Made by a program: the position numbers and the translations under genes
The notes under the pieces: generated by a model
What the model was told of the DNA's origin: nothing
Database searches by the model: none
The model's input: only the letters and a program-made list of their open reading frames with translations
In this document: positions 12,955 through 19,377 of the stretch, one piece after another
How positions within the stretch are numbered: position 1 is the first letter of the stretch
Layout of the letters: each line of letters opens with the position of its first letter
NCBI GenBank assembly: GCA_026168605.1
Contig: JAPFDX010000016.1
Location: forward strand, 62,001-126,000
Direction of reading: 5' to 3'
Source of the DNA: Roseburia sp.
GTDB lineage: Bacteria > Bacillota > Clostridia > Lachnospirales > Lachnospiraceae
DNA: 64,000 nt

Positions 12955-13368
12955 CTATGAAAGCTGCCTCAAAAGCTCCGCAGGGGTAAGAACCGGAACG
13001 CCAAATTCTTCAAAATCCTTTTTGTTCCGGGTAACGATGTAATCACACCGGATGGATTTGGCGCAGGTGGCTACAAGGCAGTCCTCAAAGTCTTTTGCTT
13101 TTTGCTGGAATGCAGTGAGCACATCATTGTTGGTACCGTTGCAGACCTTGACGATTTCCAACAGTTTTCCGACTGCCTTATATGCGAGGTCAGTACTGTG
13201 TGTGTACTTTCTCACCAGATAGTAGATATCTGTGACAGAGGAGGCGGAGACAAAGCCGTCAATCCGGTGATCTTCACAAAGGCTTAAGACTTTACAGGAA
13301 TCTTCGACAAAGGGCTCCCGTTCCAAAAGTACGTCAATGATAATGTTGGTATCACACATGATCTTCAT
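12955..13368 (-). CDS. PIN-domain ribonuclease toxin (VapC-like)
   Basis: CDTNIIIDVLLER; DFEDCLVATCAK; DYIVTRNKKDF; pairs with the upstream Phd-like gene (17-nt overlap). Confidence 0.85.
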   Translation of the reverse strand: MKIMCDTNIIIDVLLEREPFVEDSCKVLSLCEDHRIDGFVSASSVTDIYYLVRKYTHSTDLAYKAVGKLLEIVKVCNGTNNDVLTAFQQKAKDFEDCLVATCAKSIRCDYIVTRNKKDFEEFGVPVLTPAELLRQLS

Positions 13369-13579
13369 ATTTTGACAATCGCTCCTCTCTCAAAGAATCA
13401 GGATCAATATCCGAAGGAACGCCTTTTAACATTCCGCGAAGGGAATCCACAGCGGAAATCTGGGGATTGATCACCTTTGCAATGGTCTTTCCGTTGCGGG
13501 TGATGAAAATATCCTCTTTGGCGATCATCTCAAGGTATTTGCCAAAATTGGTTTTAAATTCTGTCGCAGTAACAATCAT
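13352..13579 (-). CDS. Phd/YefM family antitoxin
   Basis: MIVTATEFKTNFGKYLEMIAKEDIFITRNGKTIAKVI. Start trimmed to 13579 from the tracked 13729. Confidence 0.82.
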   Translation of the reverse strand: MIVTATEFKTNFGKYLEMIAKEDIFITRNGKTIAKVINPQISAVDSLRGMLKGVPSDIDPDSLREERLSKYEDHV

Positions 13580-13743
13580 GAATATCCCATCCTTTCTTTT
13601 GTTGCTTTTATTATATGCGATTTTGATAAAAAAAACAATAAAATCGCACGAAATAAAAGAAGTGATAAAAAGCATTGTTCGATATATGAGCGGCTGTGCG
13701 TTGCGGACATTTGAAATCACACTCCCCATAAAAATTCAAAATA

Positions 13744-15772: not shown

Positions 15773-16441
15773 ATGGAGATACCTATGGAAATAAGACGGA
15801 TTGGGGAAAATAAATTCCGCTGTGCACTGACAGAGGACGAAATCCGCGCGCTGGGCTTTTGTATTGACGATATTATCGGGGACAGCGAGACGACGCAGAG
15901 ATTCGTTCAGACTGTGATGCATCTGGTGGAGGAACACGAACAGATAAATATCAATGATTTTTCGCCGATGGTGCAGGCGGAGATCCTGCAGAACCACACT
16001 GTCGCCGTCACATTCGGCACGGATAAAGAGCTTTCCTTCCGCGAGATCATGGAGGCGGTGAACCACATTATGAGCCAGTTGTCCCCGGAACAGCTTGCGG
16101 AGTGGAAGCGGGCAAGGCAGGCGGAGCAGGAGCAGGAAGAACAGCAGACAGAGCCGATGGTCTGCGCATTCCGCTTTGCCGCGATCGAGGAGATCCGGCG
16201 GATGTGCCTGGTCTGTTTTCCGGCAGCTCTGCCAAAGAGCGGACTTTACAAGCTGGCGGGAATGTACTATCTCATCCTGGATTTTTCAGGGTTCACGAAG
16301 GAGCAGATGCGCCCGTTTGCCTTTGGCGCGGTGGAGTATGACCGCGGTCATTCTTTCAATCCGGGGCAGATTGCCCATATCATGGAGCAGGGAAAATGTA
16401 TCATGAAAAGTGAGGCTCTGGAAATGCTGATGCAGTTGTAA
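15773..16441 (+). CDS. MecA-like adaptor protein
   Basis: MEIRRIGENKFRCALTEDEIRALGFCIDDIIGDSETTQRFVQTVM and C-terminal MecA-like EYDRGHSFNPGQIAHIMEQGKCIM. Start may be 15785. Confidence 0.7.
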   Translation: MEIPMEIRRIGENKFRCALTEDEIRALGFCIDDIIGDSETTQRFVQTVMHLVEEHEQININDFSPMVQAEILQNHTVAVTFGTDKELSFREIMEAVNHIMSQLSPEQLAEWKRARQAEQEQEEQQTEPMVCAFRFAAIEEIRRMCLVCFPAALPKSGLYKLAGMYYLILDFSGFTKEQMRPFAFGAVEYDRGHSFNPGQIAHIMEQGKCIMKSEALEMLMQL

Positions 16442-16640
16442 AAAATAGATAAAAGTGATTTTGTAAATAGACAAATCTCTCAAAAGCAGGATGAATTTTT
16501 GTGGAAAGTGCCGATAAAGTTTTCTGCCCATTTTCTACTATATATGCTATGATAGTAGAGGTTCTGATACAAGATATGTGCATCAGGAAAAACAGGGGAC
16601 ATACGGACCGCAGCGCGTCCGTGTGCAGAATGGAGAGGTT

Positions 16641-16829
16641 ATGAGCAGAGAACAGATATGGGAACTAGAGGAGAGCAAGCTGAGTTTGCTGAAGCAGGCG
16701 TACCGGATGAAGCAGGAAAATCCGCATATGTCACCGGTCGGACTGGAGCATGAGATGTACGCGGCGATCATGAATGAGGTTCGCGAGATCACGAACAGAC
16801 TGCAGAGAAGTACAGAAGCATATGTATAG
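16641..16829 (+). CDS. Small hypothetical protein, 62 aa
   Basis: MSREQIWELEESKLSLLKQAYRMKQENP...; ATG at 16641 with GGAGAGG SD; followed by a terminator. Confidence 0.5.
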   Translation: MSREQIWELEESKLSLLKQAYRMKQENPHMSPVGLEHEMYAAIMNEVREITNRLQRSTEAYV

Positions 16830-16836
16830 AAACAGG

Positions 16837-16870
16837 CGGTGTAATCCCGAAATGGGGTTACACCGTTTTT
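16837..16870 (+). terminator. Rho-independent terminator
   Basis: CGGTGTAATCCC-gaaat-GGGGTTACACCG-TTTTT. Confidence 0.75.
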
Positions 16871-16939
16871 GGATCTACAGAGTGTGATTGGCAAAATGCA
16901 CACATGGTATTCTGCCGGCAGCAATCTATAAAAACTTCA

Positions 16940-17014
16940 AAAGGTGCAAATAATAATATTAAAAACGCTGTTAAAGGTGCAAATAATAATCCATATAACT
17001 TGGAAAAAGGTGCA
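16940..17014. repeat. Three direct repeats AAAGGTGCA(AATAATAAT) at an exact 33-bp period
   Basis: AAAGGTGCAAATAATAAT at 16940-16957 and 16973-16990 (identical 18-mers); AAAGGTGCA at 17006-17014; intervals 33 and 33 bp. Confidence 0.92.
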
Positions 17015-17028
17015 GGTTATGCTATGAT
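17000..17028 (+). promoter_or_regulatory. Putative promoter of the DUF4143 ATPase gene
   Basis: TTGGAA (17000-17005), 17-bp spacer, TATGAT (17023-17028); the spacer begins with the third direct repeat. Confidence 0.6.
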
Positions 17029-17057
17029 ATCTTTATGAAATGCACGGAGGTTTGCGT

Positions 17058-18419
17058 ATGGAACGAATTGCATTGGAAAAACTGACAGACTGGAACAACA
17101 GTGAGCGCAGAAAACCGCTGATCGTCTGGGGAGCGAGGCAGGTTGGAAAAACGTATCTTGTGCAGGAACTCTTTGCAAAGACTTATTATAAGGACAACTA
17201 CATCTATGTGGACTGTAAAAAAGAAGATGAAATCCGCACATTTTGTTCGGAAACTGCAAATGCCGAGAAGATCATTGAGTATATCTCTTTGCGCAAAGGA
17301 AAGCAGATCAGTGAAAAAACTTTGCTGATTTTTGATGAGATACAGGAATGTCCGAACATTATTTCGTCCCTGAAATACTTTTGTCAGGATTTCAGGGAAG
17401 TTCCTGTGATTGCAACCGGATCAATGGTGCGCATTAAGCTGCAGCGAGAGACGCATAAAAAGGGTTCCCGGGAAAGCGACAAATTTCTTTTTCCGGTAGG
17501 AAAAATCAATCAGATCACAGTTTACCCGATGACCTTTGATGAATTTTTGATGAATCGCAATAAAATGCTCTATCAAGCAGTGAAAAAAGCGTATGAGAAC
17601 AGACAGCCGCTGGATGGTCAGATTCACGGGCTGGTCATGGAGGAGGTATATAAATATCTGTTGGTAGGCGGTATGCCGGAAGCCGTGGAAGCTTATATTG
17701 AGGGGGAGGATCTCCTCGAATCGAGAGAAATCTTAAAAGCGTTGTACGATAACTATCTTGCCGATATGGAGCTGTATCAGGCAAGTCCGGAAGCGCTGTT
17801 ACGTTCCCGGGCATTGTTCCAAAATATTTACAGGGAATTAAACAAAGAATCTAAAAACTTTTCGCCGGGACTGATCGAAGAAAAAAGAAAAACAAGAGAT
17901 TTTGCGACAGCGATCCAATGGCTTACGATGGCGCACGTTGTCAACCAGTCGTTCCAGTTGAAAGAGCATATCACAATGCCGCTGATGCCGGAGGGCGAAA
18001 GTAAGTTCCGGCTATTTCTGGGCGATATTGGTATGTTTTCGTACCAGAGCGGTATCAATGCCGCATCGTTCCTGTCAAGTGAAAGAGAAAATACTTTGTC
18101 AGGGATTTTCTTTGAAAACTTTGTTGCCAACGAGCTGATCGCAAAAGGACACAAACTGTTTTACTGGCGGGGGAGGGTATCCGCCGAGCTTGAATTTATC
18201 GTTGAGTCGGACAATAAACTCTACCCGATTGATGTCAAGAAAGGCAGGGGAACCCTCAACTCTCTCGCAAAATTCTCAAACCATAACAAGTTTGAATGTG
18301 CGATCAAAGTTTCAAAAAATAATTACGGCTATAGCCCTGAGCAAAAACTGCTCACGATCCCGTTTTACTTTATCCCGTTTGTGGCAAGGGAGCTTGCGGA
18401 CGGAACAATGACCATATGA
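17058..18419 (+). CDS. ATP-binding protein with AAA_14 and DUF4143 domains
   Basis: WGARQVGKTYL Walker A; LLIFDEIQECP Walker B; IATGSMV; YKYLLVGGMPEAVEAYI; C-terminal ELEFIVESDNKLYPIDVKKG. ATG 17058 with CGGAGG SD. Confidence 0.88.
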   Translation: MERIALEKLTDWNNSERRKPLIVWGARQVGKTYLVQELFAKTYYKDNYIYVDCKKEDEIRTFCSETANAEKIIEYISLRKGKQISEKTLLIFDEIQECPNIISSLKYFCQDFREVPVIATGSMVRIKLQRETHKKGSRESDKFLFPVGKINQITVYPMTFDEFLMNRNKMLYQAVKKAYENRQPLDGQIHGLVMEEVYKYLLVGGMPEAVEAYIEGEDLLESREILKALYDNYLADMELYQASPEALLRSRALFQNIYRELNKESKNFSPGLIEEKRKTRDFATAIQWLTMAHVVNQSFQLKEHITMPLMPEGESKFRLFLGDIGMFSYQSGINAASFLSSERENTLSGIFFENFVANELIAKGHKLFYWRGRVSAELEFIVESDNKLYPIDVKKGRGTLNSLAKFSNHNKFECAIKVSKNNYGYSPEQKLLTIPFYFIPFVARELADGTMTI

Positions 18420-18426
18420 TGCAGAC

Positions 18427-18464
18427 AAAAAAGGTATCAACCCCTCGCGGCTGATACCTTTTTT
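18427..18464. terminator. Bidirectional rho-independent terminator shared by the ATPase gene and degV-like gene
   Basis: AAAAAAGGTATCA - 12 nt - TGATACCTTTTTT perfect stem with A/T tracts on both sides. Confidence 0.88.
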
Positions 18465-18468
18465 CTGT

Positions 18469-19377
18469 CTATTTTTCTTCCGCATCCGCGCGCCGGATCA
18501 GACCGACACCGATCGGATACGGACCGGTGTGCACGCCGATCGTTGCACCGATCTGGCAGATTGGTGGATTTTCAATGCCGAGGCGCTCCCGGACCACATC
18601 TGCGAGCATATCGCGGAAATGGCAGGCTTCCTCGTAGTCGTAGCCATAGCCGATCGCAAAGCTGTACTCTCCCGGTTTTATGCTGCGCTCATCCAGATAA
18701 GCCACAAACAGCTCGATGACCTTCTGCATGGATTTCTCGCGGTTCCTGCAGATGCCGGAGCTCTGGATCTCACCGGACTGCAGCGTGATGAGGGGCTTGA
18801 GCTTTAGGGCGCTTCCGGCAAGTCCGGCAAGCTTGCCGATCCTCCCGCCGTGCTTTAAGTAGTCGATGCTTCCGATCGTGAAAAAGATCCTGCCGCTCTC
18901 GCGGATGGCAAGCAGGCGTTCCACCATCCTGTCGTAGTCCCAGCAAAGATCGCGCAGATGGCACGCCTCCTGCACATACAAGCCCTGCAGTACGGTGTTG
19001 ATCGTCGAATCGATCACGGTAATGCGGGCATCCGGGTACTGCTCTAAGATCATCTCACGCGCGGTCATGGCGGACTGCATCGAACCGCTGAATTTGGTCG
19101 TGATACAGATGCAGATGGCGGGAATGTCCTCCTTTGCCAGAGGCTCAAAGACCTGATAATAGTCGTCTACGGACGGCATGGAGGTCTTTGGAAACGTGTC
19201 CGGGTGGCTGACCATCTTCTGGTAAAATTCGCGGACGTCAATATCGACGCCCTCCCGGAGGTAGGTTTCACTGTCAAAAGAGACATAAAAGGGCACGAGC
19301 AAAACGTCCAGTTCCTTTGCGGCTTCCAGTGAGAGATCACAGGAACCGTCACTGATAATCTGTACTTTTTTATTCAT
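18469..19377 (-). CDS. DegV family fatty-acid-binding protein
   Basis: VQIISDGSCDLSLEAAKELDVLLVPFYVSFD; TSMPSVDDYYQVFEPL; TIGSIDYLKHGGRIG; C-terminal GATIGVHTGPYPIGVGLIRR. Start trimmed to 19377. Confidence 0.92.
   Translation of the reverse strand: MNKKVQIISDGSCDLSLEAAKELDVLLVPFYVSFDSETYLREGVDIDVREFYQKMVSHPDTFPKTSMPSVDDYYQVFEPLAKEDIPAICICITTKFSGSMQSAMTAREMILEQYPDARITVIDSTINTVLQGLYVQEACHLRDLCWDYDRMVERLLAIRESGRIFFTIGSIDYLKHGGRIGKLAGLAGSALKLKPLITLQSGEIQSSGICRNREKSMQKVIELFVAYLDERSIKPGEYSFAIGYGYDYEEACHFRDMLADVVRERLGIENPPICQIGATIGVHTGPYPIGVGLIRRADAEEK

Follow-up and report, generated by a model that had tools for sequence, protein, structure and literature searches.

A promoter-overlapping 33-bp repeat array before a PDC-S01 ATPase gene of Roseburia sp.: a candidate operator of a mobile one-gene module

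Repeat array, promoter and ATPase gene

The stretch analysed here (64,000 nucleotides of a Roseburia sp. contig, called the window throughout) carries the following features around the repeats:

16837..16870, + strand: terminator-like hairpin (inverted repeat) that belongs to the preceding gene and borders the module on its left, outside it
16927..18427, + strand: array-plus-gene module, delimited by DNA similarity common to relatives at other genomic sites
16940..16972, + strand: repeat unit 1, core AAAGGTGCAAATAATAAT at 16940-16957
16973..17005, + strand: repeat unit 2, core at 16973-16990
17000..17028, + strand: sigma-70-type promoter TTGGAA-17-TATGAT with extended TG, geometry kept in homologues
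17006..17019, + strand: repeat unit 3, AAAGGTGCA at 17006-17014 and then GGTTA, within the promoter spacer
17046..17050, + strand: ribosome-binding site GGAGG, by sequence inspection
17058..18419, + strand: gene of the PDC-S01 protein (453 aa), AAA+ ATPase (Pfam AAA_14) plus DUF4143 (predicted PD-(D/E)XK nuclease), from Pfam, PADLOC, AF2, Foldseek and conserved residues

A small ORF at 16644-16829 (+, ~61 aa), which has no Pfam match and has its own terminator, lies between mecA and the module, and a PIN-domain gene preceded by a small partner (12955-13729, -) resembles a toxin-antitoxin pair.

The original prediction placed three direct repeats at exact 33-bp steps before the ATPase gene, the third opening the 17-bp promoter spacer, and coordinates and sequence were confirmed on both points. 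The 18-mer AAAGGTGCAAATAATAAT is exact at 16940-16957 and 16973-16990 and AAAGGTGCA lies at 17006-17014 (spacing 33 and 33 bp), the third repeat starting at base 1 of the spacer between TTGGAA (17000-17005) and TATGAT (17023-17028; extended TG). Chance is ruled out for these repeats: dinucleotide shuffles of the window gave an expectation of 0.02 copies of AAAGGTGCAAATAATAAT with up to 3 mismatches against the two exact copies observed, and the lag-33 self-similarity score of the 220 bp upstream of the gene was 23, whereas shuffles reached at most 12. Exact copies of AAAGGTGCAAATAATAAT occur in this array alone in the 2.73-Mb genome. An RNA element was rejected as a reading of the array, as Rfam had no match in 16400-18600 and units 1 and 2 stand upstream of the promoter, outside the gene's own transcript; this position of the two units points to control at the DNA level and not through a leader RNA.

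The likely start codon of the ATPase gene is the ATG at 17058, behind GGAGG (stop codon 18417-18419), and the longest ORF opens at the in-frame ATG 17040. Both Pfam domains that had been claimed for the downstream ATPase were detected in the protein (AAA_14, E 3.2e-25; DUF4143, E 2.8e-19). Among 42 homologues, GxRQxGK (Walker A) and FDExQ (Walker B) were invariant and E353, E377, D/E392 and K394 were kept in 42/42. The AlphaFold2 model, with the 42 aligned homologues as input, had a pLDDT of 90.3, and its top Foldseek matches were the archaeal AAA+ ATPases 2qen and 2fna, followed by initiators of the ORC/Cdc6/DnaA type and by STAND/NLR proteins. The C-terminal half modelled alone (pLDDT 85) matched VC1899, Can2, the McrBC complex, HindIII and similar nucleases at modest scores, and these matches together with the conserved residues make it likely that the C-terminal domain is a PD-(D/E)XK nuclease. 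When a dedicated DNA-binding domain was sought in the model, only weak winged-helix-type Foldseek matches appeared, far down the list, and a direct sequence search of the PDB with the window protein found no relative.

Against PADLOC-DB the window protein matched the PDC-S01 model (E 3.3e-125), and PDC-S01 models (E 1e-98 or better) also matched the proteins of L009, the L161 phage copy, the canonical-clade L173 and L052. By this sequence comparison the window protein is a member of PDC-S01, a candidate defence family, which passages of PMC12988326 describe as ATPase plus PD-(D/E)XK, with experimental validation still pending for most PDCs.

Conservation and clade limits of the array

Repeats are present upstream of the homologues. 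Self-similarity of 220 bp peaked at a lag of 32-34 bp in 63/70 homologues (100-32% identity), which came from Lachnospiraceae, other Clostridia, Erysipelotrichaceae, other Bacilli, Chlamydiae, Gammaproteobacteria, Riflebacteria and one contig labelled Methanomassiliicoccaceae; in a wider set that included plasmid and viral copies (viral contigs contributing 10 loci only) the lag was 31-34 bp in 81/98. The arrays have mostly 3-4 copies by a simple chain count, with conserved cores and diverged spacers. The last core, GTG[CTA]A, falls within the -35/-10 spacer in 35 of the 43 nearer homologues (47-100% identity), at offset 4 in 34 of them, and this retained promoter-overlapping layout supports the earlier suggestion that the array may control the downstream ATPase gene.

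The motif itself varies with clade (GGTGCAAATAAT; GGTGCAATTAAT; AAAAATGTGATAA; AAAAACGTG; CATAAAAGTGT; and, in another clade, the AAAAATGTGA type), the clade-specific cores mostly having in common an A-rich run followed by GTG, and the homologue comparison indicated that the period stays at 32-34 bp while the motif shifts with the protein. Motif distance followed protein distance with a Mantel r of 0.50, which 0/5000 permutations reached; the value includes shared descent of array and gene, is compatible with it, and so is no proof of protein-DNA contact. An orphan array was observed at ~1385-1440 of L240 (G299:C4): two copies of GCCGGAAAAATGTGA (the motif of another clade), at a distance of ~32 bp from each other, immediately precede a GGTGCAATTAAT array, and no second ATPase gene accompanies them.

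The proposal that the 18-mer might mark other DUF4143 genes failed, the 18-mer being unique to the window gene. The two intact paralogues of the same genome own different repeats: L009 has four copies of TGCGTATAATC, spaced by 34, 30 and 34 bp, one of which contains the -35, and L010 has two TTTTSGACTTTC cores 40 bp apart just upstream of TTGGAA-16-TATAAT, whose spacer contains a look-alike of the TTTTSGACTTTC core. A fourth DUF4143 gene (L011, G000:C12:60014-60421) is broken, with an in-frame TAG and the ATPase part gone. No significant 32-34-bp array was found in ~27 genes of the canonical DUF4143 clade (GPRQVGKTT), nor in this clade in a further sample, where members of the RKPL...GARQVGKTY/W clade often had one. 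A general DUF4143 trait is thereby ruled out; the 32-34-bp array is a clade trait, and binding such arrays is not general to the whole fold.

A travelling unit and its flanking duplications

DNA similarity of the window copy to ~25 relatives at other sites starts at 16927-16944, in the first repeat, and most of these alignments end at 18397-18427, within ~20 bases of the stop codon. Since the similarity is bounded by first repeat and stop codon, array and gene appear to move as a single unit, and on these alignments we regard them as a one-gene horizontally moving module, a unit with the array at its left edge that the original prediction did not contain. A close orthologue (at least 80%) was present in only 2/97 other relatives searched, with differing neighbours, and on its 128.9-kb contig the window copy stands between unrelated genes, the shared unit being array and ATPase gene alone. 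COG1373, the type to which AAA_14-DUF4143 proteins such as this one are assigned, has been listed among gut genes shared horizontally (PMC10782964). A test for replicon iterons gave no replication origin or replicon association at the window copy; its empty site was not found, no relative having a mecA homologue within 1.5 kb of degV, and no clean empty site was found for Bacteroides or Acinetobacter plasmids. Two other loci show further repetition: in L032 (2737-2950 and 4362-4980) terminator plus array is repeated downstream of the gene, with extra terminator copies and no second gene, and in L047 (1955-2811) the module is directly preceded by four copies of a host segment of 38-119 bp.

When all genes were put through the same test, long direct duplications were found around 16/152 ATPase genes versus 2/187 neighbour genes (odds ratio 10.9, p 1e-4). 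In this comparison every ATPase gene has intergenic DNA on its borders, whereas some control genes lie in operons, and in one of the 16 cases (L050) the duplicated DNA is a repeat copy from the array. Around the paralogue L009 (G000:C3, ~36.9-38.7 kb) an exact 93-bp duplication (L009:525-617 and 2220-2312) consists of the spoVT promoter and first codons, and relatives, some with the same HAD gene upstream, have at spoVT one unbroken copy of this segment with no ATPase gene between, an empty site. Other duplications measure 77 bp in L016 (91%), 43 bp in L045, 149 bp in L052 (gene end plus terminator), 118 bp in L161 (terminase gene end), 119 bp in L173, 47 bp in L213, 61 bp in L226 and 106 bp in L230, and that of L105 is 46 bp of tRNA-like sequence. 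Overall they vary from 23 to ~149 bp, and elements with exact junctions are 1.4-1.8 kb in size. We conclude that the PDC-S01 family is mobile, a claim that covers mobility and not mechanism.

On the viral contig L161 (1190-3001) two PDC-S01 genes of different clades stand in tandem behind the terminase gene, the first flanked precisely by the 118-bp terminase-gene-end duplication. A different species of the genus (L151, G047:C68) carries a degraded PDC-S01 remnant of the canonical clade at this spoVT promoter too, on the reverse strand and between spoVT and the promoter hairpin; the extra DNA totals ~4.8 kb, and the spoVT promoter is a possible insertion hotspot.

Transposases bind the ends of their own elements, with autoregulation as a by-product, and the array might likewise serve chiefly as the terminus of a mobile element, a DNA site that the ATPase-nuclease would bind to excise or insert the module. 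The array as left boundary of the transferred unit, the excess of duplications, the exact junctions of some elements, the empty site of the paralogue and a repeat copy just past the stop codon in some members (L048, L050) all speak for this reading, which we nevertheless judge unlikely: inspection of the junctions revealed no shared terminal sequence, duplication length is variable, duplications also surround members of clades without the 33-bp array (L173, L205, L213), and none was detected around the window copy. Moreover, the codon differences between the duplicate copies of L161 are mostly synonymous, a pattern that fits homologous recombination, or a gene end brought in with the element, better than a simple staggered cut. 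PDC-S01 genes may constitute a new class of single-gene mobile element, whose AAA+/PD-(D/E)XK protein would recognise its own 32-34-bp array and insert it together with the gene at the ends of host genes, long target duplications (~20-150 bp) making the interrupted gene whole again; this we put forward tentatively, as a possibility that we do not at present expect to hold.

Candidate autoregulation and comparison with known systems

Our preferred reading, which we consider reasonably probable from sequence comparison, is that the array serves as a three-site operator of the mobile PDC-S01 module, bound cooperatively by the module's own ATPase, which would thus repress its own promoter. The most likely ligand is this ATPase as a DnaA/ORC/STAND-like AAA+ oligomer, which would contact DNA probably through a winged-helix-like region, and bind the 32-34-bp-spaced sites cooperatively on one DNA face. 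An occupied last site between -35 and -10 would repress the promoter, and engagement of the ATPase elsewhere, for example by an invader, would ease repression so that more protein is produced. The array, its conservation, the fixed promoter geometry, its exclusivity to the gene, its co-variation with the protein and its joint transfer are the observations from which we infer the ATPase as binder, repression as sign and the release signal. Because the array is spread across phyla with the ATPase gene as its only companion, and because its motif varies in step with the ATPase, autorepression is the simplest account; protein bound upstream of a promoter could just as well activate it. A precedent is IniR, a protein with an Sso1545-like AAA+ domain that controls transcription (PMC5760070).

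The repeats look like an ordinary multi-site operator, and they could be bound by a host regulator instead of the ATPase. Host regulators often control acquired genes, as would be the case here. We regard this as quite improbable, since the unit occurs across phyla and on the archaeal contig with no second gene, the same plan being found in Clostridia, Bacilli, Chlamydiae and Gammaproteobacteria with a motif that tracks the ATPase sequence. Furthermore, a search of 391 genomes of the class for GTGCAAWTAAY-N22/23-GTGCAAWTAAY gave 4 matches at 3 loci, each directly before a clade member; the motif is absent elsewhere in its own genome and in the 391 genomes, which rules out a regulon. Still less probable is a defence sensor or decoy, in which the ATPase-nuclease would be parked on self DNA until a phage factor frees it. 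The nuclease residues kept in 42/42 homologues and the standing of PDC-S01 as a PADLOC defence candidate, ranked fourth in frequency among prokaryotic defence-type systems in passages of PMC12988326 (validation pending), agree with such a role, but the same passages leave PDC-S01 only a candidate as to antiviral activity, and a fixed site inside the promoter is better accounted for by transcription control. These three alternatives (element end, host regulator, defence sensor) are not mutually exclusive. That the repeats are functionless AT-rich tandem repeats is scarcely credible, for although the region is AT-rich, cores are conserved with diverged spacers, the promoter offset is fixed and the canonical clade has no array.

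PDC-S01 is an already known candidate, and passages of PMC13356809 name it as the single locus found most often in the rumen. The literature passages on PDC-S01 that were available, a partial coverage, make no mention of the array, the promoter geometry or the flanking duplications; within that coverage, array and duplications appear new. Relative to PDC-S01 as defined in PADLOC-DB, the array belongs to some clades only. If autorepression by the ATPase is correct, the conserved operator array offers a direct handle on what the PDC-S01 protein binds and how it is controlled, and a widespread ATPase-nuclease gene gains a concrete, testable candidate switch. Given the flanking duplications, one may ask whether defence or movement maintains the family in genomes. 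If it is kept because it is mobile, counts derived from embedding in defence loci need rethinking, and if the mobile-element reading is true, many "embedded defence genes" counted in genomes would be elements that move by themselves, each equipped with its own switch.

Insertion and integrative elements at tRNA or gene ends are bordered by direct repeats through which the target gene is made whole again, and the PDC-S01 family resembles them in occurring at different sites with such repeats; unlike them, the module has no transposase or integrase, variable duplications (23 to ~149 bp) and no conserved ends. Iteron-autoregulated initiators (plasmid Rep, DnaA-type) have direct repeats of fixed helical period (~20-22 bp) upstream of and overlapping the promoter. 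The module likewise has period-fixed direct repeats overlapping its promoter and a DnaA/ORC-like AAA+ fold, but it differs from them in its period of 32-34 bp, the lack of a replication origin and its C-terminal nuclease domain. The archaeal AAA+ ATPases Sso1545 and PAB2304 (2fna, 2qen), compared by structure, are the best structural matches at only 14-16% identity. IniR of mycobacteria, which has a MalT-like domain, a separate C-terminal DNA-binding domain and no reported DUF4143 and regulates another operon, differs in these respects from the module protein, but shares with it the Sso1545-like AAA+ domain, there within a transcription regulator (PMC5760070).
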